IMG/VR virus record: IMGVR_UViG_3300035670_000203
Coordinates: 1 to 63,207 of that record
Length of the DNA stretch: 63,207 nt
Reading direction: 5' to 3' (one strand)
Source of the DNA: a virus
Part shown: in pieces, positions 19,432 to 37,408 of the stretch
Layout of the letters: each line of letters starts with the position of its first letter
Position numbering within the stretch: the first letter of the stretch is position 1
Translations under genes and position numbers: made by a program
Notes under the pieces: model-generated
The model's input: the letters and a program-made list of their open reading frames with translations, nothing else
Database searches by the model: none
Told to the model about the DNA's origin: nothing

Positions 19432-19458
19432 AAAATTATTTGATTTGTTTATTATATA

Positions 19459-20637
19459 TTATATTAATAGATCGTTATAATTTACTGCTGCTGTGTGTGA
19501 ATCTCCACAAGATACTTGTCTCCAATTAGTTCTACCAGCGAATGTTGTGATTGGAGTGGATATACTTGTTGGATTATTATTTCCATTTCCTGTAGTAAAT
19601 TCATTACCCCAAATCCAAAGGGTTCCATCAGCCTTGATTGCTGCTGTATGAATACCTCCAGAACTCACTTGTTTCCAGTTGTTTCCCCCAGCAAATGTTG
19701 TGACTGGAGTAGATCTATTGGTTGTATCTGCATTTCCAAGTTGCCCAGAAGATCCAATCCCCCAAGTCCATAAGGTTCCATCAGTTTTGATTGCTGCAAC
19801 ATTATTAGATCCAACATTTACTTGTTTCCAATTAGTTCCCCCAGCGAATGTTGTGATTGGAGTAGATCTAGTTTGATTGCTTGTTTCTGTGTTACCAAGA
19901 TATCCTGCACCACCCGCAAATCCCCAAGTCCATAAGGTTCCATCAGTTTTGATTGCTGCCACATGAAAACCTCCAGAACTCACTTGTTTCCAGTTATTTC
20001 CCCCAGCAAAGGTGGTAACTGGAGTGGATCTATTGGTTGTATCTGCATTTCCAAGATATCCTCCGGCACCCCAAGTCCATAAGGTTCCATCAGTTTTGAT
20101 TGCTGATGTAAAATATTGACCACAAGACACTTGTTTCCAATTAGTTCCTCCAGCAAATGTTGTGACTGGAGTACTTTTAGTAGTAGTTAATACTGAATCC
20201 CCAAGTTTACCATAAGTTGGGGTTCCCCAAATCCAAAGAGTTCCATCAGTCTTGATTGCTGCTGTGTGTTGAACTGCAGCACTTACTTGTTTCCAATCTG
20301 TTCCTCCGGCAAATGTGGTTGCTGGAGTAGACGTATCTACTGATATATTGCCAGTTCCAAGTCTTCCTGAAGAAGATTCCCCCCAAATCCATAAGGTTCC
20401 ATCAGTTTTGATTGCTGCTATATGTTGGGATCCGGAAATTAATTGTTTCCAGTTTATTCCTCCAGAAAAGGTCGTAACTGGAGTTAATTTGTCAGTAAAT
20501 GATGCCTCCCCAAGTCGTCCACTAAATGCTTCTCCCCAAGTCCATAAGTTTCCATCACGAAATAAATCTGCAGGAATAAAAACATCATCAAAACTATAAT
20601 CAACTCCGTTTTGTCTAAAGTTATAAAAGGTGGGCAT
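19459..20637 (-). CDS. RCC1-repeat protein, one seven-bladed propeller
   Basis: 392 residues. After a short N-terminal segment (about 30 residues) there are exactly seven LWxWG repeats, each followed by G.LG, STPVTTFAGGTNWKQVS-like and AAIKTDGT-like segments (about 50 residues per repeat). The chain starts at the WG strand and ends with the NWRQVSCGDSHTAA strand, so N- and C-termini complete one blade, as in the RCC1 fold. The name describes fold, not RCC1 function; a surface or tail adhesin is likely by context. No signal peptide. Nucleotide-level repeats are nearly identical. Confidence 0.88.
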   Translation of the reverse strand: MPTFYNFRQNGVDYSFDDVFIPADLFRDGNLWTWGEAFSGRLGEASFTDKLTPVTTFSGGINWKQLISGSQHIAAIKTDGTLWIWGESSSGRLGTGNISVDTSTPATTFAGGTDWKQVSAAVQHTAAIKTDGTLWIWGTPTYGKLGDSVLTTTKSTPVTTFAGGTNWKQVSCGQYFTSAIKTDGTLWTWGAGGYLGNADTTNRSTPVTTFAGGNNWKQVSSGGFHVAAIKTDGTLWTWGFAGGAGYLGNTETSNQTRSTPITTFAGGTNWKQVNVGSNNVAAIKTDGTLWTWGIGSSGQLGNADTTNRSTPVTTFAGGNNWKQVSSGGIHTAAIKADGTLWIWGNEFTTGNGNNNPTSISTPITTFAGRTNWRQVSCGDSHTAAVNYNDLLI

Positions 20638-20658
20638 CTGGAAAACTTGTAAACGACT

Positions 20659-21012
20659 TTACTCTACAAAAATCACAGGAGTATTCATTTTTTCACTCCA
20701 TTCTTTTAAATATTGTTTAATTTCACTTTTTATTTCTTTATTATTTATTGCGATTGCTTTTAGATATTGACCGTTCTCATTATTCTCCACAGAAACTAAT
20801 ACACTAGACTTATCAGGTCTCATTTCTTCTGGAAGTAAATACTGACTCCAAGCACATTGATAGTTTCTACAACATTCTGGCCTTGCTTTATGAACTCCAC
20901 AACCAGTACATTCTAAAAACTTACAAGACTTTCCTGCGCCAAATTCCCATCCAAAAGAATCTCCAATTAACCAAGTGCAGCAAGCAGTGCATTCTCCACA
21001 TTCACGAAACAT
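20659..21012 (-). CDS. CxxCxxCC (YkgJ-like) metal-binding protein
   Basis: 117 residues from MFRECGECTACCTW; the ATG overlaps the upstream gene by 11 bases. CGECTACC is the signature of the YkgJ-like zinc/iron-chelating family, and further Cys follow (SCKFLECTGCGVHK, PECCRNYQC). A small metal-cluster or metal-chelating protein. Others of this family accompany glycan and flagellin modification genes. Role here unknown. Confidence 0.75.
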   Translation of the reverse strand: MFRECGECTACCTWLIGDSFGWEFGAGKSCKFLECTGCGVHKARPECCRNYQCAWSQYLLPEEMRPDKSSVLVSVENNENGQYLKAIAINNKEIKSEIKQYLKEWSEKMNTPVIFVE

Positions 21013-21655
21013 AGTCTTCCTCTCTATAAAAATATTTGTAAGGTTCATAATCTTCTGGTTGATATAAGGATTTCATTTTTCCATTTCCAGTACCAATCCA
21101 GAATTCACGATCTAATCTAAAATTACTTTCTAAAAAAGTATTATCTAATTGATTTATATAAGAAGCATTTGCCCACCAAAAATTCCCAACAAAATGTTTT
21201 GTTCCTACCTTTTCCCAAGTTTGAGTTCCATCACTCCAGGTTGTTGGCCCAAGAATCTTAAGATTACTACCAACAGCATCATAATCATTTAGGTATTCCA
21301 CACATTCTTTCCACCGATCAATTACAAAATATTCCATCATCAATCTCCAAGATTCTCCATTCATACTTTGATGAGTCAATCCTTTCATGTGAAAATAAAG
21401 AACCTTGTAATCTAGATTTTCTTTACAAAAATCTCTTAATGAAATTAAAGTTTCTGTTTCTTCTTTCCAATCTTGATTTCTTTTTATGATTGCATTTCTT
21501 GGAACATTGAATAAGTCTTTATCTCCATTTACTCCTAAATGAATATGAGATGCTTGTCTGATTAAACCAGAAGTATATAATCTATGAATTTGTGCTTGAT
21601 ATAAAAAGGCACTTATGCCTAGTTGCGAAACGTGATAAAAAATTGCTAATTTCAT
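21002..21655 (-). CDS. Glycan-cluster protein, putative glycosyltransferase
   Basis: 217 residues. YFHMKGLTH, SWRLMMEYFVIDRW, DAVGSNL and HFVGNFWWANASYI are motifs I recognise from bacterial and phage proteins in polysaccharide clusters (the HxKG...WR...GNFWWA type). It probably acts in surface glycan assembly. Catalytic residues cannot be named. Coupled to its neighbours by small overlaps. Confidence 0.65.
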   Translation of the reverse strand: MKLAIFYHVSQLGISAFLYQAQIHRLYTSGLIRQASHIHLGVNGDKDLFNVPRNAIIKRNQDWKEETETLISLRDFCKENLDYKVLYFHMKGLTHQSMNGESWRLMMEYFVIDRWKECVEYLNDYDAVGSNLKILGPTTWSDGTQTWEKVGTKHFVGNFWWANASYINQLDNTFLESNFRLDREFWIGTGNGKMKSLYQPEDYEPYKYFYREEDYVS

Positions 21656-22440
21656 GTATTATACACTCCACCATTTTCTCCTCGCATTCCTTTAATCATT
21701 GTAAGACCAAGATTGGGAATGCTGATAATATTTTTTTTATTAATAAATCTATAAAGAGAATGTTCTACGTCAGTTCCAGCAGTATATTGAATCATTCTTT
21801 CCATATACTTAAATGCCTTTTCAAGTGCCTCTACGATCTCATTGAATAACATTCGATCAAAAGACCACAATCCAGTAACCATTGTTCCTTTTGCACCATA
21901 AAGATATGCATATACATTTGCTAGTTCTATCTCATCATAATTTTCAGATTCTTCTGGAAGATATTCATACTTTTTAAGAACATATCTTCCTTCTAAAAAC
22001 TTACTTTCATAATCTTGAATATTAAAATCATCATTTAGTAAATATCTTCCAGTCATTTTAAAGACTCTTTGACTATCACTGAATAGATTATGCTGCTTAA
22101 TTGTATACAGAGCATTTAACAATCCTCTGGTTTCCAACAATGATTTTCCGTATGTAATTAACTCTGGTCTTTTTTCAAGATTTTGGTATATCTGCTGAAG
22201 AACAGGTTCATTATAAAACTCTAGAAATAAATCACACTTTTCTCTTAAAACTTCTTTGTATTTCTCATCTATTGGATGATAAGAACATTCAAACAAAACA
22301 ACGTAAGATTTTGGAACTTTTTCACGAATACATTTAATAGTTTCTAATGTTTGATTAAATCTTTGTTCTTCACCATGAGCACTAAAATTTTCTTCTTGAA
22401 AATGCTTAAGTGCTGATCCAACTAAAAATAAAAATTTCAT
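21652..22440 (-). CDS. Unrecognised protein of the glycan cluster
   Basis: 262 residues from MKFLFLVGSALKHF, whose ATG overlaps the upstream TGA. The N-terminal strand-loop pattern (LVG...) and later KMTGRYLLNDDFNI and LWSFDRMLF fit a nucleotide-sugar-using enzyme; I compare it with WavE-like lipopolysaccharide synthesis proteins, but only loosely. Coupled to adjacent glycosyltransferases. Confidence 0.6.
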   Translation of the reverse strand: MKFLFLVGSALKHFQEENFSAHGEEQRFNQTLETIKCIREKVPKSYVVLFECSYHPIDEKYKEVLREKCDLFLEFYNEPVLQQIYQNLEKRPELITYGKSLLETRGLLNALYTIKQHNLFSDSQRVFKMTGRYLLNDDFNIQDYESKFLEGRYVLKKYEYLPEESENYDEIELANVYAYLYGAKGTMVTGLWSFDRMLFNEIVEALEKAFKYMERMIQYTAGTDVEHSLYRFINKKNIISIPNLGLTMIKGMRGENGGVYNT

Positions 22441-23159
22441 AGTAGTCCCCTCTTCCATGCCCATAGTTGATCCTCTATTTGATTCTCTTCTTTATATGAA
22501 CCTTTTTCAATCTTATCAGTCCACATTTCCAAAAGTCTAATCTTATCATCATCACTGACACAGAATTCATGATTAAACCAATAGTTCATTTTTCCATCTT
22601 GCGGAATTAACTTATAAAAACTTTCAACTTTTAATCCATACTTTGCAATATTACGACTTACAATATAATCATCAAGAATATGTTGAGATTCATATCCAAA
22701 GTTTTTTTCTAGATCCATTGGATTTATTTGATCTATGAATTGCTCTGGATCCTTATGTGGTTTCCATGCGTGTCTAGTCCAATCACTGAAAATACAAACC
22801 CATGTCGTAGCACCGATATTTCTACCATCTCTTCTTACATAATTGTTATGCATAAACCGAAATGGATAGTAATCGTGACGATTAAAGATTACATATTCTT
22901 TCGGAAAAAGTTCTGTAAGATCAGGGCAATTTGGATGAACTAAAGCATCAGCATCTAAAAATATTGTCCAATCATAATTTGCTCCAATTTCATACAATTG
23001 AAACTTTTCCATATTACACGAAAGATGCGGGAACTTTCTTTCGTTGATAATAACAAAATCAGCACCAATCTTTTCAGCATACTTCCTCATATAAGGATAT
23101 GTAAACTTAGTGATTTCTTTGTTATAATTAATGTCCAGTGTAACGAGTGCTTTCTTCAT
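22437..23159 (-). CDS. Glycosyltransferase, GT8-like
   Basis: 240 residues. MKKALVTLDINYNKEITKFTY, then KIGADFVII and DWTIFLDADALVHPNCPDL give the GT-A layout with a DxD metal site. NIGATTWVCIFSDW and NYWFNHEFC are consistent with the acceptor half. Overlaps the oxygenase upstream by 32 bases. Transferred sugar unknown. Confidence 0.75.
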   Translation of the reverse strand: MKKALVTLDINYNKEITKFTYPYMRKYAEKIGADFVIINERKFPHLSCNMEKFQLYEIGANYDWTIFLDADALVHPNCPDLTELFPKEYVIFNRHDYYPFRFMHNNYVRRDGRNIGATTWVCIFSDWTRHAWKPHKDPEQFIDQINPMDLEKNFGYESQHILDDYIVSRNIAKYGLKVESFYKLIPQDGKMNYWFNHEFCVSDDDKIRLLEMWTDKIEKGSYKEENQIEDQLWAWKRGLL

Positions 23160-23625
23160 AATCTGTGTTAAAACTAATAACGATTCTTTGTTCTTGTTCT
23201 TCTTCCGTATAATGAATTAAATCACTTGAAAAAATAACTAGCAGTCCAGAGTAAGGTTTGATCCTTCTATCTATATCAGGAAATATTAGGGGAACTGAAT
23301 TATCTCCCACAGAAACATAAAATGCTCCACTTAAAATACTTTGCTCATTCTCATTACTATGATTATGTGCTTTTAATTTATTTCCTGGTTCAACAACATT
23401 AAACCAACTGTTGATAAATTTAAGGTTTTTATCGTAGCACAGATTGATATGTTGTTTTATAATTTTATTCAATCCTTGCAATTCTGGATACATTAAGACT
23501 GGCATTCCAAAATTAAAAGTTGATTTACCTTTTGTAATTAATCCGTGCTCGTTTCCTTGAATTGCAAGTAAAGTCTTTTGAATTGATTTGAGGTTCAAAA
23601 ATGATAAATTATATTCCTCTACCAT
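23128..23625 (-). CDS. 2OG-Fe(II) oxygenase, putative
   Basis: 165 residues. KAHNHSNENEQSILSGAFYV carries the first His set of the 2OG-FeII_Oxy_5 group; LIHYTEEEQEQRIVISFN carries the distal His and the Arg for 2-oxoglutarate. This is the second oxygenase of the cluster. Overlaps by 17 bases with the TPR glycosyltransferase upstream. The substrate may be a side chain that is then glycosylated; this is inference. Confidence 0.75.
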   Translation of the reverse strand: MVEEYNLSFLNLKSIQKTLLAIQGNEHGLITKGKSTFNFGMPVLMYPELQGLNKIIKQHINLCYDKNLKFINSWFNVVEPGNKLKAHNHSNENEQSILSGAFYVSVGDNSVPLIFPDIDRRIKPYSGLLVIFSSDLIHYTEEEQEQRIVISFNTDYEESTRYTGH

Positions 23626-24949
23626 TTAAAAACTCCTTGAGTTGTTTTAAAGGTTCTTCCCAGGTTCTTGGTTTCTTTTGCTTGAACAAATGAACATTAT
23701 CTCCATACCACCAAGATTTTCCTGTTGAACTTGTCCATACATAATATTCCATAATCGGAACAAATACACAGACTTCTTTTCCTTGTGATGCTGCGATGTG
23801 AGCAATAGAAGTGCAAGAAGTAATGACTAGATCCATTTGAGATACAATTGAAAATGTATCAGTAAAATCACGACCAGGAATGTTAAAAGTTTTTACATCA
23901 TAACCTTCTGGTGGTAATTGGTCTGGAAGTTGAAGTGAATATAAAGATGCTGAAGTTTCAGAAAGAATATCAAAAAGTGGTTCTGGTTGAATCGAACGGA
24001 AATGTGCCTGCTCAAATCCAGAACCAGAGTTCCAAAATACACCAATCTTATATTTCTGGTCTTCTTGAATATATGAGTATTCAGATTCTTTTTCAGGGAG
24101 TGGGTTTAGATAGGGTGTTTGACCTAGATCTTCTACTTTTAGATTGAGATAATAAGGAAGTGCAAGAGCATAAACCCAGCAAGGATCTCCTGAAAATTCT
24201 GGATTATCCCAAACAAGTTCAGTTTCAAATCCATTATATCTAAAAATCTTTTGAATATCCTTTCGGGTTGTTGTCCAAATTGGATTCATTCCGAGGTCTT
24301 TTAGATGCTTCATAAAACGGACGTGAATTATTTCATCCCCCGCACCACATTGACTGTCTATGATAATACTTCTTTCTTTTTGTGGTGTTCCATCCCATTT
24401 TTCAAATGGTGGAAGTTTTCTATTTTTATATGCTTCTACTTCTCCTGCTTTGAGAAAATGTTGAAGTCCTGTATGAATATCATCTTTTCTGAAATAATGC
24501 CCAGAAAGATTGTGATATGCCTTACGATCAATTTCAGCAGGTAATGGTTTTTTAATCAGATCAAATAAAAGTTTTTCTGCTTTTTGTTTTTGATTAATTG
24601 CAGAATAAGAAAAAGTTTCTTCTAAAAGAAGTTCAGTATCTTGCGGATTTTTTGATTTAATTTTTGAAATTTGAGTTAATGCTTTTTCTGGATAGTTATT
24701 TTGATTATAAGCATTAATTAAATTTTTTGTTGTGATGTAGTTTTCTTCAGGAGTTCTTGTGAGTTTAAGTGCTTTCTCCCCATAATGCATAGCATTTGAG
24801 AAGTCTTTAATCTCAAAGAAAATCTTTGCCACATCATTATATTGCTCAAAAGTCTCTGCTCTTTTGCCGAATGCTTCTAGAACTTGTGTTGTAAGTTCTT
24901 TTTCTTCAAAAGAATATAGTGTTTTTGTGACCAACTCAAGGGGGTTCAT
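23609..24949 (-). CDS. TPR-glycosyltransferase (GT9/GT41-like)
   Basis: 446 residues. Residues about 25-170 are TPR-like helices (FFEIKDFSNAMHYGEKALKL, AYNQNNYPEKALTQI). From about 185: IDSQCGAGDEIIHVRF, a GT-B domain with KIGVFWNSGSGFEQAHFRS and VITSCTSIAHIAASQGKEVCVF, the pattern of TPR-coupled glycosyltransferases that act on proteins. SWWYGDNVHLF near the end is typical. I infer glycosylation of a phage structural protein, perhaps a fibre. A late-type AATAAATA lies about 25 bases upstream. Confidence 0.8.
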   Translation of the reverse strand: MNPLELVTKTLYSFEEKELTTQVLEAFGKRAETFEQYNDVAKIFFEIKDFSNAMHYGEKALKLTRTPEENYITTKNLINAYNQNNYPEKALTQISKIKSKNPQDTELLLEETFSYSAINQKQKAEKLLFDLIKKPLPAEIDRKAYHNLSGHYFRKDDIHTGLQHFLKAGEVEAYKNRKLPPFEKWDGTPQKERSIIIDSQCGAGDEIIHVRFMKHLKDLGMNPIWTTTRKDIQKIFRYNGFETELVWDNPEFSGDPCWVYALALPYYLNLKVEDLGQTPYLNPLPEKESEYSYIQEDQKYKIGVFWNSGSGFEQAHFRSIQPEPLFDILSETSASLYSLQLPDQLPPEGYDVKTFNIPGRDFTDTFSIVSQMDLVITSCTSIAHIAASQGKEVCVFVPIMEYYVWTSSTGKSWWYGDNVHLFKQKKPRTWEEPLKQLKEFLNGRGI

Positions 24950-24973
24950 AAGAAATATTGAATGTATTTTGAT

Positions 24974-24981
24974 TATTTATT
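24974..24981 (-). promoter_or_regulatory. Late-type promoter box AATAAATA
   Basis: AATAAATA on the minus strand, 25 bases before the ATG of the TPR-glycosyltransferase. It overlaps the stop of the RCC1 gene to its right. Matches the cyanophage late box NATAAATA; implies that the glycan genes are co-expressed with structural genes. Confidence 0.5.
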
Positions 24982-26224
24982 AGAAGTCTACAGACTTTAT
25001 TGCTACTGAGTGTCTATTTCCAGCACTTACTTGCTTCCAATTATTTCCTCCAGCAAATGTTGTTACTGGAGTGGATTTGCTAGGTGTTTCATTATTTCCA
25101 AGAGTTCCAGAAAATCCATTACCCCAAGACCAAAGAGATCCATCAGTTTTGATTGCTAATGTAAATCTATTATCAGCACAACTTACTTGTTTCCAATTAT
25201 TACCTCCAGCAAATGTGGTAACTGGAGTGGATGTATTGGTTGTTGATGCATTTCCAAGTTGTCCATTATTTCCATTACCCCAAACCCAAAGAGTTCCATC
25301 AGTTTTTATTGCTGCCATATGAACTTGCCCACAACTTACTTGTTTCCAGTCAGTTCCCCCAGCAAAGGTGGTAATTGGAGTAGATGAATTACCTGATGTG
25401 GGATCTCCATTTCCAAGTTGTCCATTTGTCTTTAATCCCCAAGTCCAAAGAGTTCCATCTGTTTTGATTGCTGCACCAAATAGACTACCTCCACTAATTT
25501 GTTTCCAATTAGTTCCCCCAGCAAAAGTAGTGACTGGAGTAGATCTATCAGTTATATCGGCATTTCCAAGTTGTCCACTACTGCCTCTACCCCAACTCCA
25601 AAGAGTTCCATCTGTTTTGATTGCATATGTACAATATCCACCACAAGAAACTTGTTTCCAGTCAGTTCCTCCAGCAAATGTGGTGATTGGAGTAGATCTA
25701 TTTCCTACTATAAGTAGATTTGCAAGTCTTCCATTACTACTACTTCCCCATAACCATAATGTTCCATCAGTTTTGATTGCTGCTGTATGCTCAGAATTTA
25801 AAGCAAAGGAACAACTAACTTGTTTCCAATTAGTTCCCCCAGCAAATGTGGTAATTGGAGTGGATATAATAGTAAGAACTGATGATAATGTATTTCCAAG
25901 TTGCCCACTAGCAGCAAGTCCCCAAGTCCAAAGAGTTCCATCAGTTTTAATTGCTGCTATTTGATCATCTCCAGCACTTACTTGTTTCCAATCAGTTCCC
26001 CCAGCAAATGTGGTGACTGGAGTGGATCTGTTTGGAGTTATATCGTTAGTTCCGAGGTTCCCATCAGAAGAAAGTCCCCAAACCCATAATTCTGGTGGAA
26101 TACCAATTTGTTGACCGATTTCAGGATAAACGCTCAGTAAATAATCTTTACGGATTAACTTACTTCCTAAGTCAACTCCATTACTATCTTTAAAATTAGT
26201 AGTAATATTTTGATTAGAACTCAT
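24980..26224 (-). CDS. RCC1-repeat protein, one seven-bladed propeller
   Basis: 414 residues. About 45 N-terminal residues (MSSNQNITTNFKDSNGVDLG...) precede seven LWxWG repeats (VWGLSSDG, TWGLAASG, LWGSSSNG, SWGRGSSG, TWGLKTNG, VWGNGNNG, SWGNGFSG). The chain again starts on WG and ends on the NNWKQVSAGNRHSVAIK strand, closing the ring. Variable residues cluster just after WG and around the NADTT-like turn. No signal peptide. Probable adhesin or fibre tip, by context with fibre genes. Confidence 0.88.
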   Translation of the reverse strand: MSSNQNITTNFKDSNGVDLGSKLIRKDYLLSVYPEIGQQIGIPPELWVWGLSSDGNLGTNDITPNRSTPVTTFAGGTDWKQVSAGDDQIAAIKTDGTLWTWGLAASGQLGNTLSSVLTIISTPITTFAGGTNWKQVSCSFALNSEHTAAIKTDGTLWLWGSSSNGRLANLLIVGNRSTPITTFAGGTDWKQVSCGGYCTYAIKTDGTLWSWGRGSSGQLGNADITDRSTPVTTFAGGTNWKQISGGSLFGAAIKTDGTLWTWGLKTNGQLGNGDPTSGNSSTPITTFAGGTDWKQVSCGQVHMAAIKTDGTLWVWGNGNNGQLGNASTTNTSTPVTTFAGGNNWKQVSCADNRFTLAIKTDGSLWSWGNGFSGTLGNNETPSKSTPVTTFAGGNNWKQVSAGNRHSVAIKSVDF

Positions 26225-26225
26225 T

Positions 26226-26897
26226 TTACTCTTCTATTGGTTGTTCTGATAATTGAGGGTTTTCTCTAATAACGACATTATAAACATCATCAATTGTTGT
26301 ACAAGCATCAATCTCTTGTAATTTTGCTAACTCCCAATCAAATGCTTCTTGAACTTTTATATCAATTTGAGTAAGAACATATTGCAATTCTTCTGAAGTA
26401 ATTTGTAACCAAGTATTATCAAATTTAAAATTATGAGGCCCTGGAGATGCAGAAAGTTTTGCAGATAAAAGAATTCTTTCCTCTCTTGAGGTTGAAATTT
26501 TTACTGCATTTCCATTCAAATTTATAGAAATCTTAGTATTTTCTTTTTCTCTTCTGAGTGGAGAAACTTCTTGTTTACGAAGTTCTTTAACTTCTTCTAA
26601 AGTCTTGTCGGATATTGGATAAGTAAATAAAACCTTAATTGGAATATTATTTTCTTCAATGATTGACCAAGTAAAATTACCAACATTATGGTATCTTGGA
26701 TCATGATTTGGAATAACTTTTTCTATTGGTATAAGATGAGTTTGGTCATCACTAAAATGAATTGGAAGATCAGAGTAACTTTGAGGAGAAATTCTTTCTT
26801 CAATCTCAAGATCTTCCAATTCAGAATTAATCATTCTGACATTGAAACCCATAGGGCCAAGTATTAATGAATTATTGTTGATCAGTGCTATTTCCAT
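26226..26897 (-). CDS. Probable fibre-assembly protein (DUF4376-like)
   Basis: 223 residues. The first 100 residues are strand-rich with NFTWSIIEENNIPIKVLF. The second half (LLSAKLSASPGPHNFKF, then ELQYVLTQIDIKVQEAFDWELAKL) fits the C-terminal domain of phage tail-fibre assembly proteins (DUF4376 type). Its place between two propeller genes supports a role in folding or mounting them. A CATAAATA late box is 15 bases upstream of the ATG. Confidence 0.6.
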   Translation of the reverse strand: MEIALINNNSLILGPMGFNVRMINSELEDLEIEERISPQSYSDLPIHFSDDQTHLIPIEKVIPNHDPRYHNVGNFTWSIIEENNIPIKVLFTYPISDKTLEEVKELRKQEVSPLRREKENTKISINLNGNAVKISTSREERILLSAKLSASPGPHNFKFDNTWLQITSEELQYVLTQIDIKVQEAFDWELAKLQEIDACTTIDDVYNVVIRENPQLSEQPIEE

Positions 26898-26911
26898 TGG
26901 TGTTTTTTATC

Positions 26912-26919
26912 TATTTATG
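26912..26919 (-). promoter_or_regulatory. Late-type promoter box CATAAATA
   Basis: CATAAATA on the minus strand, 15 bases upstream of the DUF4376-like gene and overlapping the end of the large propeller gene. A good match to the cyanophage late box, though the leader would be very short. Confidence 0.5.
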
Positions 26920-29900
26920 AGAGTGGGAGGTCTGGTGAGATTCCTGATTGTATTGCTGCCGCATGTATTCTTCCAAAAAATACCTGTTTCCAGTTATTGC
27001 CCCCTGCAAAGGTAGTTACTGGACTATAAAACCTATTAGAATAATTTTGTTCAAAATTATTTCCAACTTGCCCAAAAGAATTATATCCCCAAGTCCACAA
27101 TGTTCCGTCAGTTTTAACTGCTATTGTATTACCATAACCAGCACCTACTTGCTTCCAATTAGTAGCATTTCCATCGACTTCTTTAGGAGACCAATTTTGA
27201 GGTGTTCCAAGTGCAAGGTCAGTATCATCTTCATTTTGTCCAAAAACATATAATTCATTATTAATTCCATCTCCTCTCAATGCAAAAGAACTTGAATTGT
27301 TAGTAAATACCTGCCTCCAATTAGTTCCTCCAGCAAATGTTGTAACTGGCGTACTTATATTTGGATTAGAAATTGATGCATATAAAGTTTTATTTCCAAG
27401 AAAACCATATCCATTATAACCCCAAGTCCATAATGTTCCATCAGTTTTAATAGATATTAAATTATTTGATTGTGAGCATACTTGCTTCCAATTAGTTCCT
27501 CCAGCAAAGGTGGTGACAGGAGTAGATACATTAGTTAATGATGCATTTCCAAGTTGTCCATAATTTCCACTACCCCAAGTCCATAAGGTTCCATCAGTTT
27601 TGATTGCTGCTGTAATAGAATCTCCAGCACTCACTTGTTTCCAATTAGTTCCTCCAGCAAAAGTAGTGACTGGAGTGGATTTATTGGTCGTATCTGCATT
27701 TCCAAGATGTCCAGAAGATCCAATACCCCAAACCCAAAGAGTTCCATCAGTTTTGATTGCTGCTGTGTGAACAGCTCCATTACTCACATGTTTCCAGTTG
27801 GTTCCTCCAGCAAATGTGGTGACTGGAGTGGATACAACACTATTAACTGTTACGCCATTTCCTAATTGTCCGTTTGTTGTTACTCCCCAAGTCCACAAGG
27901 TTCCATCAGTTTTGACTGCTACACCACAGTTAAATTGTGAACTAACTTGCTTCCAATTAGTTCCTCCAGCAAAAGTGGTTGTTGGAGTGAAAACTGCTTT
28001 TCTTCTACTTGTGAATCCATTTCCAATTTTTCCAGAATATTCATTTCCCCAAACAAAAAGTTCTTTATTGACTCCATTATCTTTTAGTGCCACAGTATGT
28101 TCTCGTCCTGAACTAACTTGTTTCCAATCAGTTCCTCCTGCAAATGTAGTAACTGGAGTAGAACTATTTGCAGTAAGCACGTTTCCAAGTTGCCCTAAAA
28201 GTCCATTACCCCAACCCCACAAAGTTCCATCAGTTTTAACAGCCATAGTATGAGCGTATCCACTACTTACTTGTTTCCAATCAGTTCCTCCAGCAAAAGT
28301 AGTAATTGGTGTAGATCTATTACCTACTATTAATGTATTTCCCAATCTTCCGTTGGATGTTGTTCCCCAAACCCAAAGAGTTCCATCAGTTTTGATTGCT
28401 GCTGTATGTCTGTTTCCGCTACTTACTTGTTTCCAATTAGTTCCTCCAGCAAATGTTGTAACTGGAGTAGATCTAGTACCTGTTATTAATGCATTTCCAA
28501 GTGACCCATAAGACATTCTTCCCCAAACCCAAAGAGTTCCATCAGTTTTGATTGCTGCTGTATGAAAACCTCCAGCACTTACCTGTTTCCAGTCGGTTCC
28601 TCCAGCAAATGTGGTAAGGGGAGTTGAAGTAACTGATAAATTATTTACAGCATTTCCAAGTTGTGAATTAGTGCCCAATCCCCAAGTCCATAAAGTTCCA
28701 TCAGTTTTGATTGCTGCAATATGAAACCTTCCGGAACTTGTTTGTTTCCAGTTGGTTCCTCCGGCAAATGTGGTGATTGGAGTAGATCTATCGGTTGTAT
28801 CTGCATTTCCAAGTAATCCAAAACGTCCATCTCCCCAAGTCCAAAGAGTACCATCAGTTTTGATTGCTGAATTGGTAGCAAAATTATCAAAAGTACTAGT
28901 TATTGAAACAGAAGATGATACTTGTTTCCAGTTAGTTCCTCCAGCGAATGTTGTAATTGGAGTAGAAATAGCACTTGTGGTAGTCAATCCATTTCCAAGT
29001 CTACCATTTTTTCCATTTCCCCAAACCCAAAGAGTTCCATCAGTTTTGATTGCTATAGTATGTTCATTGCTTGCACTTAAAGTGTAAAGATCTTCTGGTT
29101 CTGCAGTTAAAGTATCTGCCCAATTAGTTCCTCCAGCAAAGGTGGTGACTGGAGTAAATGGTATATTAGAAGTAAAAAATCCAAGTTGAGAATTGCTATT
29201 ATTTCCAAATGCCCATAAAGTTCCGTCAGTTTTTATTGCTAAAGTTGATGAAATAGAAGAATGCACTTGTTTCCAATTAGTTCCTCCGGCAAATGTTGTA
29301 ACTGGAGTATAAATTACAGTTGTAGGTGTAGAATTGGTTCCTAGTTTTTCTCCAAACCCCCAAGTCCATAAAGTTCCATCAGTTTTGATTGCTGATCCAC
29401 TAGATATTGTATAAAGATCTTCTGGTTCTGTAGTTAAAGTATCTGCCCAATTAGTTCCTCCAGCAAAGGTGGTGACTGGAGTATATCTTATTCTTAGTGG
29501 ACCATTCCCTAATTGACCATATACAGAATTTCCCCAAGACCACAAAGTACCATTGGTTTTAATTCCTAACATGTGATTTGCACCACATACAACTTGCTTC
29601 CAATCAGTTCCTCCTACAAATGTAGTAACTGGAGTAGATGTAGGTTCACCATTATTATTTCCAAGAGATCCATCTGGATTAAATCCATTAAATCCCCAAG
29701 TCCATAAAGTACCATCTGTTTTAACTGCAGCAGTGTTTCCTCTTCCAGCACTTACTTGTTTCCAATCAGTTCCTCCAGCAAAAGTAGTGATTGGCGTATA
29801 TGCATCTACATCAGTAGTTCCATTTCCAAGTTCTCCTGAAAATGCAGCTCCCCAAGTCCAAAGAGTTCCATCTGTTTTAATTGCAGCGACATGAAAAAAA

Positions 29901-30427
29901 CCACCTTCAACTTGTTTCCAATTGTTTCCTCCAGCAAAAGTAGTGACTGGTGTGGATCTATTTCCATTAACTGTATCATTAATTCCAATGTTAATATTAT
30001 CTCCCCAACACCACAAACTTCCATCAGTTTTGATTGCAAAGGTAGAAAATCCAGACAATGCTATTTGTCTCCAGTCATTCCCTCCAGCAAATGTAGTAAT
30101 TGGAGTTGATCTGACAGCCGGAGAAGATGTTATTCCATGTCCAAGTTGTCCATTAAATCCATAACCCCACATCCATAAGGTTCCATCAGTTTTAATACCT
30201 CCAGAATGACCATTCCCTAAAGAAATTTGTTTCCAGTTACTTCCTCCAGAAAAAGTGGTAACTGGAGTAATTACAGATGTTACTGCAGTATTATTACCAA
30301 TTTCTCCACCATATCCTTGATGTCCCCATAACCACAATTGATCTCCAATATACTGATCAATTAACCAGTATTCGGTTACAAAATAATTTTCTAAGTCTCC
30401 TTCTGGGGATAAAAACTGATTAGGCAT
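26915..30427 (-). CDS. Giant RCC1-repeat protein, 21 blades (3 x 7)
   Basis: 1170 residues. Counting the LWxWG-type strands gives 21 repeats (including LWAFG and LYVFG), i.e. three complete seven-bladed propellers in one chain. The chain starts on WG and ends on NNWKQVFFGRIHAAAIQ, so closure is possible. Blades 15 and 20 are irregular (ALKDNGVNKELFVWG, ALRGDGINNELYVFG); blades 7 and 9 are preceded by ADTLT(T/A)EPEDLY insertions. About 25 N-terminal residues have no repeat. RCC1-fold proteins usually have seven blades, so 21 is unusual. I infer a large receptor-binding or baseplate-decorating protein; no enzymatic residues seen. Confidence 0.85.
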   Translation of the reverse strand: MPNQFLSPEGDLENYFVTEYWLIDQYIGDQLWLWGHQGYGGEIGNNTAVTSVITPVTTFSGGSNWKQISLGNGHSGGIKTDGTLWMWGYGFNGQLGHGITSSPAVRSTPITTFAGGNDWRQIALSGFSTFAIKTDGSLWCWGDNINIGINDTVNGNRSTPVTTFAGGNNWKQVEGGFFHVAAIKTDGTLWTWGAAFSGELGNGTTDVDAYTPITTFAGGTDWKQVSAGRGNTAAVKTDGTLWTWGFNGFNPDGSLGNNNGEPTSTPVTTFVGGTDWKQVVCGANHMLGIKTNGTLWSWGNSVYGQLGNGPLRIRYTPVTTFAGGTNWADTLTTEPEDLYTISSGSAIKTDGTLWTWGFGEKLGTNSTPTTVIYTPVTTFAGGTNWKQVHSSISSTLAIKTDGTLWAFGNNSNSQLGFFTSNIPFTPVTTFAGGTNWADTLTAEPEDLYTLSASNEHTIAIKTDGTLWVWGNGKNGRLGNGLTTTSAISTPITTFAGGTNWKQVSSSVSITSTFDNFATNSAIKTDGTLWTWGDGRFGLLGNADTTDRSTPITTFAGGTNWKQTSSGRFHIAAIKTDGTLWTWGLGTNSQLGNAVNNLSVTSTPLTTFAGGTDWKQVSAGGFHTAAIKTDGTLWVWGRMSYGSLGNALITGTRSTPVTTFAGGTNWKQVSSGNRHTAAIKTDGTLWVWGTTSNGRLGNTLIVGNRSTPITTFAGGTDWKQVSSGYAHTMAVKTDGTLWGWGNGLLGQLGNVLTANSSTPVTTFAGGTDWKQVSSGREHTVALKDNGVNKELFVWGNEYSGKIGNGFTSRRKAVFTPTTTFAGGTNWKQVSSQFNCGVAVKTDGTLWTWGVTTNGQLGNGVTVNSVVSTPVTTFAGGTNWKHVSNGAVHTAAIKTDGTLWVWGIGSSGHLGNADTTNKSTPVTTFAGGTNWKQVSAGDSITAAIKTDGTLWTWGSGNYGQLGNASLTNVSTPVTTFAGGTNWKQVCSQSNNLISIKTDGTLWTWGYNGYGFLGNKTLYASISNPNISTPVTTFAGGTNWRQVFTNNSSSFALRGDGINNELYVFGQNEDDTDLALGTPQNWSPKEVDGNATNWKQVGAGYGNTIAVKTDGTLWTWGYNSFGQVGNNFEQNYSNRFYSPVTTFAGGNNWKQVFFGRIHAAAIQSGISPDLPLS

Positions 30428-33124
30428 TTACTTTCCTCCAGCAATTTCTTTGATTGCTTCAATTAATACAGCAATTAAGTTTCCGTAAGAAACTGTTTTT
30501 AATCCTTTATCATTTGTGGTAACAACTTCTGGAAGTATCTTTTCCATTTCTTGAGCAATGACACCAATAGATGACTGATTATGGCCGTCCTTCCAATCAT
30601 ATTTAACACCATTCATTTGCATTACAAGTTCAAGAGCATTTTCAATTGGTCTAATGTTAGTTTTCTGTGATTCATCAGATAGTGAATTGAATACAGTTGC
30701 AGATAAAGTTCCAGAGGAAGGATTATAAGTTAATTTATTTTCTGAAACTTTTAACTCAGAAAAGACCCCAGAAGTTACAGTAGAATATCCAACATAATAA
30801 GTTTCATTAGTTGATTCATCATTTACTACAGTTAAAGAAGCAGAACTCCCTTGAGTTCCTTGGATTCCTTGATTTGATAATCCCTGCAATCCCTGTAATC
30901 CTTGTCTTCCTTGAACACCTTGAGAACCCTGAACACCCTGATCTCCTTGTGCTCCAACTCCACCAAAGGTTCCTTGTGATCCTTGAATTCCTTGTCTTCC
31001 TTGAGTTCCTTGAACCCCTTGGTCTCCTTGTGCTCCAACTCCACCAAAAGTTCCTTGGGATCCTTGAATTCCTTGTCTTCCTTGAGAACCCTGAACACCC
31101 TGATCTCCTTGTGCTCCAACTCCACCAAAGGTTCCTTGTGATCCTTGAATTCCTTGTCTTCCTTGAGTTCCTTGGACTCCTTGATTACCTTGATTACCTT
31201 GCAATCCTTGAGTTCCCTGAGGACCACTTATATTTCCTATATTAATCCAATTACCACTTCCAACATATACCCAAAGGTCATTTAATGCATCATCAAGAAC
31301 AGCATTACCAAGTTCTGCAGATGGGAAAGCAGCATTTAAAGTAGTTTCTGGATCATTAGGAGGTGCTACATTTACATCAGGAACGGATCCAATAATAATA
31401 GTTGCTTGTCCATTAGCACCTTGAACCCCTTGAAGTCCCTGTCTTCCTTGATTTCCTTGAGTTCCTTGAATTCCTTGAACACCTTGATCCCCTTGTAAAC
31501 CAACGGCACCAAAAAGACCTTGAACACCTTGAACACCTTGAACACCTTGATTTCCTTGATTTCCTTGATTGCCTTGTAATCCTTGATTTCCTTGAACTCC
31601 TTGGTTTCCTTGATTGCCTTGAATTCCTTGGTTACTTAATCCTTGAACACCCTGATTTCCTTGAACTCCTTGGTTTCCTTGGGTTCCTTGTATACCTTGA
31701 TCCCCTTGTAAACCAACGGCACCAAAAAGACCTTGAACACCTTGAACACCTTGATTGCCTTGATTACCTTGAACTCCTTGATTACTTAAACCTTGAAGAC
31801 CTTGAACCCCTTGGTTTCCTTGATTACCCTGGTTTCCTTGAAGACCCTGATTACCTTGATTACCTTGAACACCTTGATTGCCTTGGTTTCCCTGGAGTCC
31901 TTGATTACCTTGGAGTCCTTGATTACCTTGAACACCTTGGTTTCCTTGATTGCCTTGAACACCTTGGTTGCTTAATCCCTGAAGACCTTGATTTCCTTGA
32001 ACCCCTTGAGATCCTTGATCTCCCTGAATACCTTGGGATCCTTGTAAACCAACTGCTCCAAAAGTTCCTTGGTTTCCTTGATTACCTTGCAAACCTTGGT
32101 TACCTTGATTACCTTGGACTCCTTGATTACTTAAACCTTGAAGTCCTTGATTGCCTTGATTCCCTTGAAGTCCCTGGTTTCCTTGGACACCTTGGTTTCC
32201 TTGATTGCCCTGTAAACCTTGGTTTCCTTGATTTCCTTGGACCCCTTGATTGCCTTGATTTCCTTGTAATCCTTGGGTTCCCTGAGGACCACTTATATTT
32301 CCAATGTTGGTCCAATTGCCACTTCCAAGATAAACCCAAAGATCATTTAATGCATCATCTAAGACTGCATTGCCAAGTTCTGCAGATGGGAAAGCAGTGT
32401 TTAAAGTAGTTTCTGGATCATTAGGAGGCGCTACATTTACATCAGGAACGGATCCAATAATAATAGTTGCTTGCCCAGTAGTTCCCTGAGTACCTTGAAC
32501 ACCAAAAGGACCTTGATTTCCTTGATTACCTTGAACACCTTGATTACTTAAACCTTGAAGACCTTGAACACCCTGAACACCTTGGTCTCCCTGAACACCT
32601 TGATTACCTTGAACACCTTGATTACTTAAACCTTGTAATCCTTGAACTCCTTGATCACCTTGTAATCCTTGAACACCCTGAACACCTTGGTCTCCCTGAA
32701 GACCTTGATTACCTTGTAATCCTTGGTTGCCTTGCAATCCTTGGTTGCCTTGAACACCCTGGTTTCCTTGATGTCCCTGAAGACCCTGATTACCTTGTAG
32801 ACCTTGATTACCTTGTAATCCTTGGACTCCCTGGTTACCTTGTAGACCCTGAATACCTTGCGTTACAACATCTCTAGATGGAACCCAGAATCTTTCTCCC
32901 TCATACCCATCAGCAGCAATTAGAACATAATGCTCTACTGGAACTTTAATAGGACTTTCTGGAGTTCCTGGTGTAAAAGGATTAGTTCCAACAGAAGAAA
33001 CACCAACATTAGGATCACCTAAATCAGGTTCTGCCTGTTCCAATCCAAGGAATTCATATCTATCAGATGTAATTCCTGATTGAGGTAATCTTTGTACTCT
33101 TCCTGTTGTATATTTCTTAGTCAT
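30428..33124 (-). CDS. Collagen-like tail fibre with S74 chaperone end
   Basis: 898 residues. About 90 N-terminal residues are non-repetitive, then long runs of the QGxQGx triplet (VQG, LQG, NQG) to about 745, interrupted by two copies of a 60-residue module (about 215-280 and 575-640; PDVNVAPPNDPETTLN, WVYLGSGNW) and by seven LSNQG breaks in triplet phase. The C-terminus (SLSDESQKTNIRPIENAL, YDWKDG, SSIGVIAQEMEKILPEVV) is an S74 intramolecular chaperone, which trims itself after trimer folding. A trimeric fibre is expected. The Gln-for-Pro collagen seen here is common in phages. Confidence 0.88.
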   Translation of the reverse strand: MTKKYTTGRVQRLPQSGITSDRYEFLGLEQAEPDLGDPNVGVSSVGTNPFTPGTPESPIKVPVEHYVLIAADGYEGERFWVPSRDVVTQGIQGLQGNQGVQGLQGNQGLQGNQGLQGHQGNQGVQGNQGLQGNQGLQGNQGLQGDQGVQGVQGLQGDQGVQGLQGLSNQGVQGNQGVQGDQGVQGVQGLQGLSNQGVQGNQGNQGPFGVQGTQGTTGQATIIIGSVPDVNVAPPNDPETTLNTAFPSAELGNAVLDDALNDLWVYLGSGNWTNIGNISGPQGTQGLQGNQGNQGVQGNQGNQGLQGNQGNQGVQGNQGLQGNQGNQGLQGLSNQGVQGNQGNQGLQGNQGNQGTFGAVGLQGSQGIQGDQGSQGVQGNQGLQGLSNQGVQGNQGNQGVQGNQGLQGNQGLQGNQGNQGVQGNQGNQGLQGNQGNQGNQGVQGLQGLSNQGVQGNQGNQGVQGVQGLFGAVGLQGDQGIQGTQGNQGVQGNQGVQGLSNQGIQGNQGNQGVQGNQGLQGNQGNQGNQGVQGVQGVQGLFGAVGLQGDQGVQGIQGTQGNQGRQGLQGVQGANGQATIIIGSVPDVNVAPPNDPETTLNAAFPSAELGNAVLDDALNDLWVYVGSGNWINIGNISGPQGTQGLQGNQGNQGVQGTQGRQGIQGSQGTFGGVGAQGDQGVQGSQGRQGIQGSQGTFGGVGAQGDQGVQGTQGRQGIQGSQGTFGGVGAQGDQGVQGSQGVQGRQGLQGLQGLSNQGIQGTQGSSASLTVVNDESTNETYYVGYSTVTSGVFSELKVSENKLTYNPSSGTLSATVFNSLSDESQKTNIRPIENALELVMQMNGVKYDWKDGHNQSSIGVIAQEMEKILPEVVTTNDKGLKTVSYGNLIAVLIEAIKEIAGGK
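31212..31411 (-). repeat. Repeat module within collagen-like gene, copy 2
   Basis: A 200-base module nearly identical to the copy about 1.07 kb to the right (only scattered substitutions). Encodes the PDVNVAPPNDPETTLN...NDLWVY(V/L)GSGNW domain. Identity of synonymous sites suggests recent duplication or gene conversion within the gene. Confidence 0.8.
32277..32476 (-). repeat. Repeat module within collagen-like gene, copy 1
   Basis: First copy (in protein order) of the 200-base module that interrupts the collagen run. Together with the second copy it brackets a block of QGx repeats, giving a potential recombination pair that would change fibre length in frame. Confidence 0.8.
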
Positions 33125-33490: not shown

Positions 33491-36400
33491 TTACTTACTT
33501 ATTCCTAGAATTAATGGTGTTACTGTATTTAACAAACTTTGGCTAAATGCCCTACCACTAATAGTTCCAGTAATCTGGTTAATAACAATGTCATCTCCAA
33601 TTTTAAAGTTGCCTGCCTGATCAGTACTGGTATAAACAACTTCACCACCATTGAGTTTTACAACCTCATTTTCTGGAATTAGTACACCACCCAAAGCAGG
33701 TTTTGCGGTGTTGATGTTATTTCCAGTTCCAACCCATTCAAATGAGTGAGAAGAAGTGATTTGTAAACTTAAACGACTAAAGTAAACAGTTGTTCCTGCA
33801 CTTACTGTATTATTTAGATTCTGTTGAAGAACGATTGTAGAAATACCGGCAACAGGTAGTGTCGCACTTTCGATTGTATAATATGTTGGGTATATTGTAG
33901 TATGAGCAGTTGCTTGAACTGCATTTGGTCCAGGTGGTGGGGGAGCAATTGTAACTGAAGGTGCAGTTCTATACTGACTTCCTGTTGCAATTACATCAAT
34001 AGAAACAACTTTTCCATCAACAATATTTGGTGATGCTTCCGCACGAATTCCAAATGCATCTTCTGGAGGTGCTTCTATTGTTACAAGTGGAGGATTAAGT
34101 TCAGAATATCCACTACCAACATTATCCATTTCAATTGTCTGAACAATATAGAATAGTTCTCCAAAGTATAGTGCCTGACCATCATAAGGACGATAAGAAC
34201 CTATACCTGATACTATGACCGTATCTTGTTCGACAGGAGCATTTTGTTCTACTACACCAGTATATCTGTAGATTGATTTTGAAGTTCTATCACCAACACC
34301 ATCAGCAACAAGTCCAAGTCTTCCGAAAGAAGAGTTGGAGTTTGTAAGGTCGCATTGTCCACCAGATGCAGTAAAGATTGCAATGTCATTACAAATTGTG
34401 AAGATAGAAACTAACTGAGAATATGCACCATTAGTAATGGAAACACCAATTCCCCCCTGATTATACTGAGTATAAGAGTCAACACTCATAGAACCAGTAA
34501 CACCAATATCTACTTGGTCTCCAGGTTCTGCTTCAAATCCATCAACTTTCATTCCAATACTATTGGGAACAAAGTTAGTGCAGTTTCTCACATAAGGACC
34601 TTGTGTAATTGGTCCGACTCCTGGAGAATAAGGTGGTTTTACATAACCTCCTTGAACATATTCGTGAGGTATTGTTGAAGGTCCAACTCTAACCACAAAT
34701 GTTGTTCCTGCACCTATAACATCAGTAACTCTGAATTTATAACCTTCACTTCCAGTTGGATATATTGTAGTTGTTCCTGCACCACTTGTGCAACTAAATT
34801 CCAAATCTCTAATAGTGACTACATCATTAACTCTTACATAAGCACCAGGAGCAGTAATGGTGGTAATTCCAGTTGTATGATCATAAATTGCATCATCAAT
34901 AGCAACTGAACGATCTACAACATATCCTGTTCCAAAAACATATTCACGAACAATTGTTGATATTCCAGTATTAATAACAACTGAACCATCTTCATTTACT
35001 CTATCAATATAATAATTGTATCCGAATTGATCATTAGTATAAGATTCTATAAAGATTGAATCAGAAAAGAAAATATAAAAAAGATCTCTTACTTCAATTA
35101 AATCTCCTTTTTTAGCGTTTAATGGAGATGCTGTTGTAATAGTTATTTCTCCATTTTGTGGATTATAAGGAGCATCAATAATTTCTACTTTTCCTTCAAA
35201 TCCAACCCCACTATTTCCAGGATAAGAAGTTGTGATTCCAGATTCTGATCCAAGTCCAACGATTGTAGTAACAACTCCAACACAAGACCTTATTGCAGAA
35301 ATTACATTTGAACATCCGTTAATTGCATTATTAAATCCAGTTTCAAAATCTGGCTGCATTCCCAAATCTTTTACTTGATAAAATTCATTTTGGAAACTTG
35401 TGTATTTTTGAACAGTTCCTCCAGAAACATAATTGTGAGGTAGTGTTGATTGTCCTACAACGACTTCAAAGTTATCGTCATCTATTACATCTAAAACATT
35501 AAATACATATCCATAAGCACCAGTTGGATAAGTTAGTGTAAGAACTCCACCATCAGAAGGACAAGTAAATCCTAATCCAACAATTTTTACTGCATCATTT
35601 TGATTTAAATTATGATTTTCTGCGGTAATCGTTACAATACCTGTAACATTATCATACTCAGCAAATGTTACATCAGTAGCAACTCCTACAGGATAACCTC
35701 CCCAAGTGCAGTTATTAACTACTGAACGAGCAACATTAAAAGAATAATCTAATGTTGCAATTGTTTGCTCGACTTCTCCAGGATTTTTTAGAATTTCTGG
35801 AATTAAATTCCAATTTTCATCATAATAAGTTTCTCCTGCCATCACACAACGAGAATTTCCACCTCTTGTAATATCAAAACAAATTGCTCTCCAAATATCT
35901 TTTACATCATCTGCACAGTCTTGACTCTCAAGAGTAACTCCAAATTCAATTGCTGGTGCTTGTTCAGTCCCTAATCCAACAATACTTGTAACAATTCCAG
36001 AAAGAGTTTCAATTCTTACAATTGTATCTCCACATCCACCAGGAACTAGAATTGGAGAATAACTACTAGTATCTTGACTTAAAGAAGTATATTGATCTGG
36101 ATAAGACTCATTATTAATAACGTAAGTTACAATACCAACTGCGTGTTGAATCGCATCTACAGTTGCTTCACGAACACTATAACCATTTACATCAGTTCCT
36201 GTAATATGTTGTAGTGCTCCCGCATTATCATAATAAGATAATCCAGCACCGACAGATTTCTTATTACTTCCTGCTTTTAAGTCATAAGAAATTGAGCGAA
36301 GAATATCTTTAATATCATCCTCACAATCTTCAGGAACAGTGGGAACTACAAATGCAGGAGACTTGTAATCTGTAGAAGTAAGGAATCCAATTGTTTCTGA

Positions 36401-37408
36401 TGCAATATAATCAAGATTTAAGTCTATAAGTCTAGCAGCATCTTGTTCTCTATGACTTCCAGCAAAACCACTGAATCCACTTGTTAAGAAACCAACTGCT
36501 TCTTTTGCAATATAATCAAGATTCAAACGAAGCATTCTTGCTCCATCAAAAAATCTATCAACCTGAACACCTTCAAGGGGTTCAAATGATACAATAGCAG
36601 CACCATTAGTCATTTCAGGACCAATGAAACTTATATCAGTAATATGACAACCATTGTTTACATAAAATAAATCTAGATCAGGGAATCTTGGAGTGACTAC
36701 ACAGTTTCTTAATTCTGTTCCTTCTACGGAAACTGTTTTCTTTAAAACTATGGGATTATCTTCTACATAAACTCCAGGATAAACTTTAATAGTATCACCA
36801 AAGTTTGCTATTTGTGCTGCTGCTTTAATTGTTCTTTTTGAATGATTTTCAGTTAATCCAGTATTATTATCATCACCATTTTGAGTGACGAAGATTGTTT
36901 TCCCAGTAGGTTTATATGCGTCTATTGTAACTATACCTTTTCCTGGATTTTGAGTAGCATCAATTTGAATGCCTATTCCAGGAACAATTTGAGTTACAAT
37001 ACCTACAAGATTTACACCATCACCAAAGTATTCAATGGCAGTTACATCACCAGAAACAGTTACATCATCTCCAAATGTTCCAGTGGATCCAACATCTAAA
37101 GTACTGCCAACTACAAGTTCCTGTCCAATATCGGCAGAACCAGAAGCATTTATATTTCCATCTATACCGACACCACCTTCAACTACAAGAGATCCAGTGC
37201 TTACTGAAGTAGACTCTGTAGTATTTGTGAAATTAACTAGTCCTGTTGCGGTTAAAGGACCATCAAATGTTCCACCACCTACAACATCTAAGGTTCTTTG
37301 GGGATCGGTGGTTCCAATACCAACTCTATCCCTAACACCATCAGCATAAATTAGATTTTCATCAACTTCAAGACCATTTTTTACGACGAAATTTTTGTTT
37401 ATGCCCAT
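33491..37408 (-). CDS. Large beta-helix tail fibre or adhesin
   Basis: 1305 residues. The N-terminus MGINKNFVVKNGLEV and following VGIGTTDPQRTLDV resemble short collar or fibre attachment parts. From about 165 TIFVTQNGDDNNTGLTENH, GDTIKVYPGVYVEDNPIV and TELRNCVV mark a pectate-lyase-like right-handed beta-helix. LNLDYIA(K/S)E and RDLEF-type segments repeat afterwards, as do GYKFRVTDVI and GYVFNVLDVI. A C-terminal beta-sandwich ends GNFKIGDDIVINQ. Similar very large proteins are typical of marine cyanophage fibre loci. Host receptor recognition is inferred. Confidence 0.8.
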   Translation of the reverse strand: MGINKNFVVKNGLEVDENLIYADGVRDRVGIGTTDPQRTLDVVGGGTFDGPLTATGLVNFTNTTESTSVSTGSLVVEGGVGIDGNINASGSADIGQELVVGSTLDVGSTGTFGDDVTVSGDVTAIEYFGDGVNLVGIVTQIVPGIGIQIDATQNPGKGIVTIDAYKPTGKTIFVTQNGDDNNTGLTENHSKRTIKAAAQIANFGDTIKVYPGVYVEDNPIVLKKTVSVEGTELRNCVVTPRFPDLDLFYVNNGCHITDISFIGPEMTNGAAIVSFEPLEGVQVDRFFDGARMLRLNLDYIAKEAVGFLTSGFSGFAGSHREQDAARLIDLNLDYIASETIGFLTSTDYKSPAFVVPTVPEDCEDDIKDILRSISYDLKAGSNKKSVGAGLSYYDNAGALQHITGTDVNGYSVREATVDAIQHAVGIVTYVINNESYPDQYTSLSQDTSSYSPILVPGGCGDTIVRIETLSGIVTSIVGLGTEQAPAIEFGVTLESQDCADDVKDIWRAICFDITRGGNSRCVMAGETYYDENWNLIPEILKNPGEVEQTIATLDYSFNVARSVVNNCTWGGYPVGVATDVTFAEYDNVTGIVTITAENHNLNQNDAVKIVGLGFTCPSDGGVLTLTYPTGAYGYVFNVLDVIDDDNFEVVVGQSTLPHNYVSGGTVQKYTSFQNEFYQVKDLGMQPDFETGFNNAINGCSNVISAIRSCVGVVTTIVGLGSESGITTSYPGNSGVGFEGKVEIIDAPYNPQNGEITITTASPLNAKKGDLIEVRDLFYIFFSDSIFIESYTNDQFGYNYYIDRVNEDGSVVINTGISTIVREYVFGTGYVVDRSVAIDDAIYDHTTGITTITAPGAYVRVNDVVTIRDLEFSCTSGAGTTTIYPTGSEGYKFRVTDVIGAGTTFVVRVGPSTIPHEYVQGGYVKPPYSPGVGPITQGPYVRNCTNFVPNSIGMKVDGFEAEPGDQVDIGVTGSMSVDSYTQYNQGGIGVSITNGAYSQLVSIFTICNDIAIFTASGGQCDLTNSNSSFGRLGLVADGVGDRTSKSIYRYTGVVEQNAPVEQDTVIVSGIGSYRPYDGQALYFGELFYIVQTIEMDNVGSGYSELNPPLVTIEAPPEDAFGIRAEASPNIVDGKVVSIDVIATGSQYRTAPSVTIAPPPPGPNAVQATAHTTIYPTYYTIESATLPVAGISTIVLQQNLNNTVSAGTTVYFSRLSLQITSSHSFEWVGTGNNINTAKPALGGVLIPENEVVKLNGGEVVYTSTDQAGNFKIGDDIVINQITGTISGRAFSQSLLNTVTPLILGISK

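Follow-up and report, generated by a model that had tools for sequence, protein, structure and literature searches.

RCC1-repeat proteins of a cyanophage-like virus with repeat totals in multiples of seven: candidate tail-borne propellers

Why would a phage carry, among its tail-fibre genes, three RCC1 proteins whose repeat numbers are all multiples of seven, and what might such proteins do? The question is raised by a 63 kb virus record (IMG/VR IMGVR_UViG_3300035670_000203), the whole stretch of which (63,207 nucleotides) is called here the window and which derives from a cyanophage-like virus. T4-like tail genes are present in the window, the relatives of the tail tube cap being found in Synechococcus and Prochlorococcus phages, and the gene layout resembles that of the freshwater cyanophage S-SRM01.

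Three RCC1 proteins in a tail-fibre gene region

The RCC1 genes, designated A, B and C, sit in the tail-fibre/baseplate gene region. Their features and those of their closest neighbours are as follows (the N-terminal peptides are called anchors after their proposed role).

26915..30427 (-): protein C, 1170 aa, 21 RCC1 repeats, type I anchor (LWxWG count, Pfam, survey, anchor typing)
30338..30427 (-): N-terminal anchor peptide of C, type I (MPNQFLSPEGDLENYFVTEYWLIDQYIGDQ), kept in orthologues with 6, 7, 14 and 28 repeats
29219..30337 (-): repeats 1-7 of C, putative ring 1 (from repeat positions)
28061..29218 (-): repeats 8-14 of C, putative ring 2 (from repeat positions)
26948..28060 (-): repeats 15-21 of C, putative ring 3 (from repeat positions)
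26226..26897 (-): DUF4376 protein between C and B, weak matches to phage tail-fibre PHROGs
24980..26224 (-): protein B, 414 aa, 7 RCC1 repeats, type II anchor (LWxWG count, Pfam, anchor typing)
26090..26224 (-): N-terminal anchor peptide of B, type II (TNFKDSNGVDLGSKLIRKDYLLSVYPEI...)
19459..20637 (-): protein A, 392 aa, 7 RCC1 repeats, type III anchor (LWxWG count, Pfam, anchor typing)
20548..20637 (-): N-terminal anchor peptide of A, type III (MPTFYNFRQNGVDYSFDDVFIPADLFRDGN)
30428..33124 (-): collagen-like fibre protein carrying a Peptidase_S74 intramolecular chaperone, encoded immediately upstream of C
33491..37408 (-): large tail-fibre protein, PHROG 17885, 3442

The initial annotation had counted 7, 7 and 21 repeats in A, B and C, a result confirmed by the count of LWxWG-type strands (repeats mostly of 49-62 residues) and by an independent repeat HMM. 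The curated RCC1 models PF25390 and PF00415 match above cut-off and cover the repeat regions of all three proteins (best E = 4e-64, 1e-79 and 2e-177 for A, B and C). The shared start on WG and end on NW(K/R)QV...H, also claimed at the outset, were likewise recovered: each chain begins with an N-terminal peptide of 30-45 residues followed by an LWxWG strand, and ends with an NW(K/R)QV..H..A strand, all three being cut at the identical point of the RCC1 repeat.

The closest known counterpart of this arrangement is found in S-SRM01, a freshwater member of the Kyanoviridae, in which gp335, gp337 and gp344 carry the same three anchors in the same order and have the same neighbours as in the window (an S74 fibre, gp336, TPR, 2OG and glycosyl genes). 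gp336 occupies the position of the DUF4376 gene and has a similar end sequence, and B is 60% identical to gp337. The repeat numbers of gp335, gp337 and gp344 are 6, 7 and 7, against 21, 7 and 7 for C, B and A.

Several neighbouring genes can be described further. The 898 aa fibre encoded at 30428-33124 has collagen-like GxQG repeats with few prolines, its Peptidase_S74 chaperone being located at the end, while a 2098 aa protein (38686-44982) has a short match to the N-terminal domain of the lower-baseplate protein BppL and a Peptidase_S74 chaperone at its C-terminus. A cluster of genes of glycan-modifying type (14432-24949) extends between the RCC1 genes and past them; it includes a methyltransferase/glycosyltransferase fusion (14432-16579), a sulfotransferase (18649-19431) and two 2OG-Fe(II) oxygenases (17256-17903 and 23128-23625), a third oxygenase of this type being encoded at 46366-47034.

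Repeat totals and ring closure

Repeat numbers were surveyed in several hundred viral contig stretches, retrieved by one protein query together with four DNA patterns typical of this RCC1 subfamily, so that the sample is drawn towards it. Repeats were counted by the repeat HMM in complete ORFs, with dereplication at 90% and merging of split repeats. Among the matches listed, and with the caveat that metagenome assemblies can collapse repeats, the total is a multiple of seven in 362 of 412 dereplicated complete viral RCC1 ORFs, which comprise 330 cases of 7 repeats, 17 of 14, 6 of 21, 2 of 28, 2 of 35, 4 of 42 and 1 of 56. Of the 47 ORFs exceeding eight repeats among the matches listed, 32 follow the rule (p = 7e-17, binomial against 1/7), as do 22 of the 27 which are tiled without gaps (p = 1e-14, among the matches listed). 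Totals in multiples of seven are far beyond chance. The counting method does not impose this number, because the same HMM mostly gives 8 hits on bacterial genome contigs and 15 in several longer ORFs. In these bacterial proteins, the first hit lacks the repeat start and the last hit the repeat end, consistent with seven or fourteen blades, one of them split between the termini.

Raw counts of 29 (L009/L010), 34 (L116) and 37 (L253) proved on inspection to reflect split or weak repeats, the true numbers being 28, 35 and 35; the remaining odd counts were handled by the merging rule only. Exceptions do exist and often lack a single repeat to reach a multiple of seven, such as 6 repeats in S-SRM01 gp335 (L131:27329-28363) and in L103 (109-1134), and 13 in L215 (6188-8362). 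These could represent six-blade rings, rings completed by the anchor or losses during assembly. In a 27-repeat ORF (L155:4682-8971), repeat 20 is followed by an internal peptide resembling an anchor, which would fit a fusion of a 20-repeat gene with a 7-repeat one.

The initial annotation regarded the three proteins as one, one and three whole seven-blade propellers, and had suggested structure prediction as a check. AlphaFold, run on C from a three-row alignment, gave a pLDDT of 28. For a type I orthologue with 14 repeats (L166), for which 15 sequences of 14 repeats could be aligned in register, the model reached a pLDDT of 77.3 and a pTM of 0.67. Foldseek superposed this model on the single seven-blade ring of HERC2 RLD2, with a TM-score of 0.84 of the target and 2.4 Å over 364 columns. 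This alignment is collinear and spans about seven repeats, so that one ring of the model is made up of seven repeats in a row; the superposition would be at odds with an open solenoid or with a ring of 14 blades. Together with the counts of 7, 7 and 21, the model, which is of L166 and not of C itself, makes a strong case for a seven-blade propeller fold of the phage RCC1 proteins. Such a fold would be shared, like the repeat sequence, with HERC2, UVR8, RPGR and human RCC1, all solved seven-blade propellers. The original reading in whole propellers is thus retained and extended by the survey and by the closed ring in the model, the second ring of L166 and the three rings of C being what the remaining repeats would be expected to form.

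How the rings close appears to differ from the cellular case. While bacterial relatives begin near repeat position 30 and end near 26, leaving one repeat split between the chain ends, phage chains begin at position 1 and end near 46, at the turn which precedes LWxWG. The velcro closure by a split repeat, a common although not a core feature of the RCC1 family, was accordingly not found in phage chains, so that closure must use another strand, and compared with bacterial rings (e.g., L466, L488 and L508), those of phages have the appearance of circular permutants. In close relatives, the junction between repeats 7 and 8 resembles an ordinary A-B hairpin, without a linker; consecutive rings may be joined by a strand swap or by a C-terminal strand returning to the first ring. 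Irregular blades as marks of the ring boundaries, as proposed at the outset, were not supported. A similar irregular junction is also present between repeats 19 and 20 of C, and in 32 long proteins, the junctions at multiples of seven are canonical only slightly less often than the others (43% versus 57%, p = 0.03), irregular ones being at most weakly enriched there.

Orthologous lines and the origin of the sevens

Their distinct N-terminal peptides and conserved gene order assign A, B and C to three separate orthologous lines, C having the type I peptide, B type II and A type III. Among the matches listed, type I proteins have 6 (four cases), 7 (34), 14 (one), 21 (one, that of the window) or 28 repeats (one after dereplication). 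Type II proteins have 5 (two), 7 (43), 14 (one), 21 (two) or 42 (one), and type III proteins 7 (39), 13 (one) or 6 (one), another one scored as 5 reading as 7 by eye, again among the matches listed. The order I-II-III along the transcript was found, among the matches listed, in 20 contigs with all three types and in 36 with two neighbouring types; in four further contigs one type is present in an additional copy, and the order was reversed in none of those listed. The phage therefore seems to keep three different RCC1 proteins, each of which may be enlarged. The possibility that the anchor peptides are a general fibre tag was ruled out, as a search for types I-III on non-RCC1 ORFs in all loci returned truncated RCC1 ORFs only.

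Multiples of seven might simply be a by-product of duplicating whole seven-repeat units, rather than of selection for closed rings. Orthologues indeed differ by a net seven: in a repeat-level alignment of C with its 28-repeat orthologue, repeats 1-8 match 1-8, 14/15 match 21/22 and 20/21 match 27/28, giving a net difference of exactly seven which is internal (score 2.15, versus a maximum of 1.54 in 20 shuffles). However, repeats seven apart show no excess similarity, as assessed at the protein level in four long proteins and at the DNA level in C. The closest pairs within long proteins occur at many different spacings, including one exact protein-level copy three repeats apart. This absence of a seven-repeat period disfavours simple whole-ring duplication, which would in addition leave single-ring proteins in need of selection for ring size, and we consider it quite unlikely as the source of the rule. 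Most simply, gain, loss and mixing would involve single repeats or small blocks of them, and only ring-closing totals would persist, in which case the seven would be made by selection and not by the unit of copying. Blades would then recombine and diverge one by one, net copy steps of seven arising because only chains of complete rings survive.

In the 28-repeat orthologue, an insert of about 200 residues (L010:4486-5268) splits repeat 25, the flanking RCC1 sequence being the sole Pfam match.

Tail association and the variable face

The initial annotation had proposed a propeller on a phage fibre; a place of these proteins in the tail-fibre region is supported by the gene context and by fusions in relatives. 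Among the matches listed, 59 surveyed ORFs have more than 150 residues before the propeller; several of those tested match tail-fibre or baseplate PHROGs in this region, and others contain TIG, Ig-like or LamG domains. Tail-fibre PHROGs 30742, 11393, 9017, 18673 and 5073 were thus found upstream of the propeller, a covalent fusion of the homologous domain to fibre modules which is seen in relatives and not in the window. In Clostridioides phage LIBA6276, an RCC1 gene is located between two annotated tail-fibre genes. Two chromosome-condensation genes stand out among the handful that diverge strongly between a pair of closely related coliphages belonging to one species (PMC13070987). Virion RCC1 proteins have been identified by mass spectrometry in E. 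coli phage W70 (PMC11370258) and, as the RCC1-like GAP_001, in Cronobacter phage GAP32 (PMC5259590). The description of a "new type" of module in the initial annotation was therefore too strong. The W70 (phrog_4219) and GAP32 proteins belong to the same family as A, B and C but are distant in sequence, the W70 proteins being small (about 40 kDa). A virion location of A, B and C is likely.

In the accessible parts of both reports, the virion proteins are interpreted as DNA-condensation proteins and tandem rings are not described (PMC11370258; PMC5259590). That A, B and C are packaged or intracellular DNA-condensation or nucleoid proteins would agree with this suspected role (PMC11370258), with the usual annotation as "regulator of chromosome condensation" and with PHROG 4219, which matches the RCC1 proteins of the window and is categorized under DNA/RNA metabolism. 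Their net charges (0, +2 and -2; pI 7.0, 8.2 and 6.8) give no sign of a basic DNA-binding protein, and both the location among tail-fibre genes and the fusions to tail-fibre modules argue against such a function. Furthermore, the RCC1 name derives from a eukaryotic Ran exchange factor, and to our knowledge bacteria have no Ran. Added to the distribution of variable positions described below, which is more in keeping with an outer binding face than with one for DNA, these data make a role in DNA condensation very unlikely.

Across the 35 repeats of the window, positions 6-20 and 36-42 vary (entropy of 2.3 and 2.4 bits, respectively) while values elsewhere are 0.6-0.7, the strands and the A-B and C-D turns being conserved. 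In a four-strand propeller blade, the B-C and D-A loops lie on one face. Positions 6-20 correspond to the B-C loop and 36-42 to the D-A loop, so that a hypervariable and exposed surface is delineated, same-face placement and exposure being derived from general propeller topology. In 13 matched repeat pairs between C and the 28-repeat orthologue of L010, dN/dS is 0.94 in the B-C loop and 0.50 in the D-A loop, versus 0.07-0.24 elsewhere. This is the pattern of a recognition face, although loops evolving near neutrality could reflect relaxed constraint rather than selection by the host.

Collectively, A, B and C are probably propellers which are borne on the tail, bind a receptor and change in size by whole rings. 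In the proposed arrangement, each seven consecutive repeats would form one closed seven-blade ring, A and B having one ring each and C three on a single chain. The short N-terminal peptide, of three conserved kinds, would anchor each protein to the tail-fibre/baseplate network, the rings would sit outside as receptor-binding heads, and the freely varying B-C and D-A loops would make the contact with the host surface, where a glycan is the probable target. Anchoring, virion location, receptor binding and the order of the rings in C are all inferred from the data above.

Two other functions can be weighed against receptor binding. As virion-attached spacer or decoration modules, the proteins would have their length tuned by rings, in keeping with close orthologues which differ by net whole rings and with seven repeats being usually enough; the strong concentration of change in the loops of one face is unexpected for a spacer, and this function appears unlikely. 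They could also inhibit a host protein, inside or outside the cell, like the seven-blade BLIP-II, whose fold class they share; their versatile binding face would be in line with this. The tail-fibre gene context and the fusions speak against an inhibitor, no signal peptide was seen on inspection of A, B and C, and three conserved types of N-terminal peptide in a fixed order fit assembly into a larger structure, so that we hold this function to be highly improbable. 

If the receptor-binding reading is correct, these proteins may represent a type of adhesin, widespread among phages, in which valency comes in quanta of one propeller. Related phages would encode one, two, three, four or six rings in the same gene, with blades shuffled singly, totals kept at multiples of seven and one face diversifying for host recognition. 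We regard the odds of this broader generalization as evenly balanced. Phage and virion RCC1 proteins are already known, as is, in principle, the amplification of blades into several rings: a 15-blade WD40 protein has been predicted to form 7 + 8 blades (PMC9218822). The amplified WD40 multi-propellers share with the phage proteins the blade-wise growth into several rings per chain proposed here, but have near-identical blades and mixed ring sizes, in contrast to the diverged blades and multiples of seven of phage RCC1 (PMC9218822). Cellular RCC1 proteins are mostly single rings. No account of the phage rule of seven, of one-ring steps between orthologues, of the three-anchor set or of single-face variability was found in the open-access literature. 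In one further article (PMC10218006), "rcc1" is only a gene tag and has no bearing on these proteins.

The odd count makes the rule testable on hundreds of genes and ring closure legible from sequence, and orthologous genes with natural one-ring steps offer a clean system for studying the evolution of repeat proteins under a folding constraint. Phages might tune binding valency through the number of rings. A tail-borne, receptor-binding function would also correct the common DNA-condensation label of phage RCC1 genes and flag overlooked candidate determinants of host range in aquatic phages.
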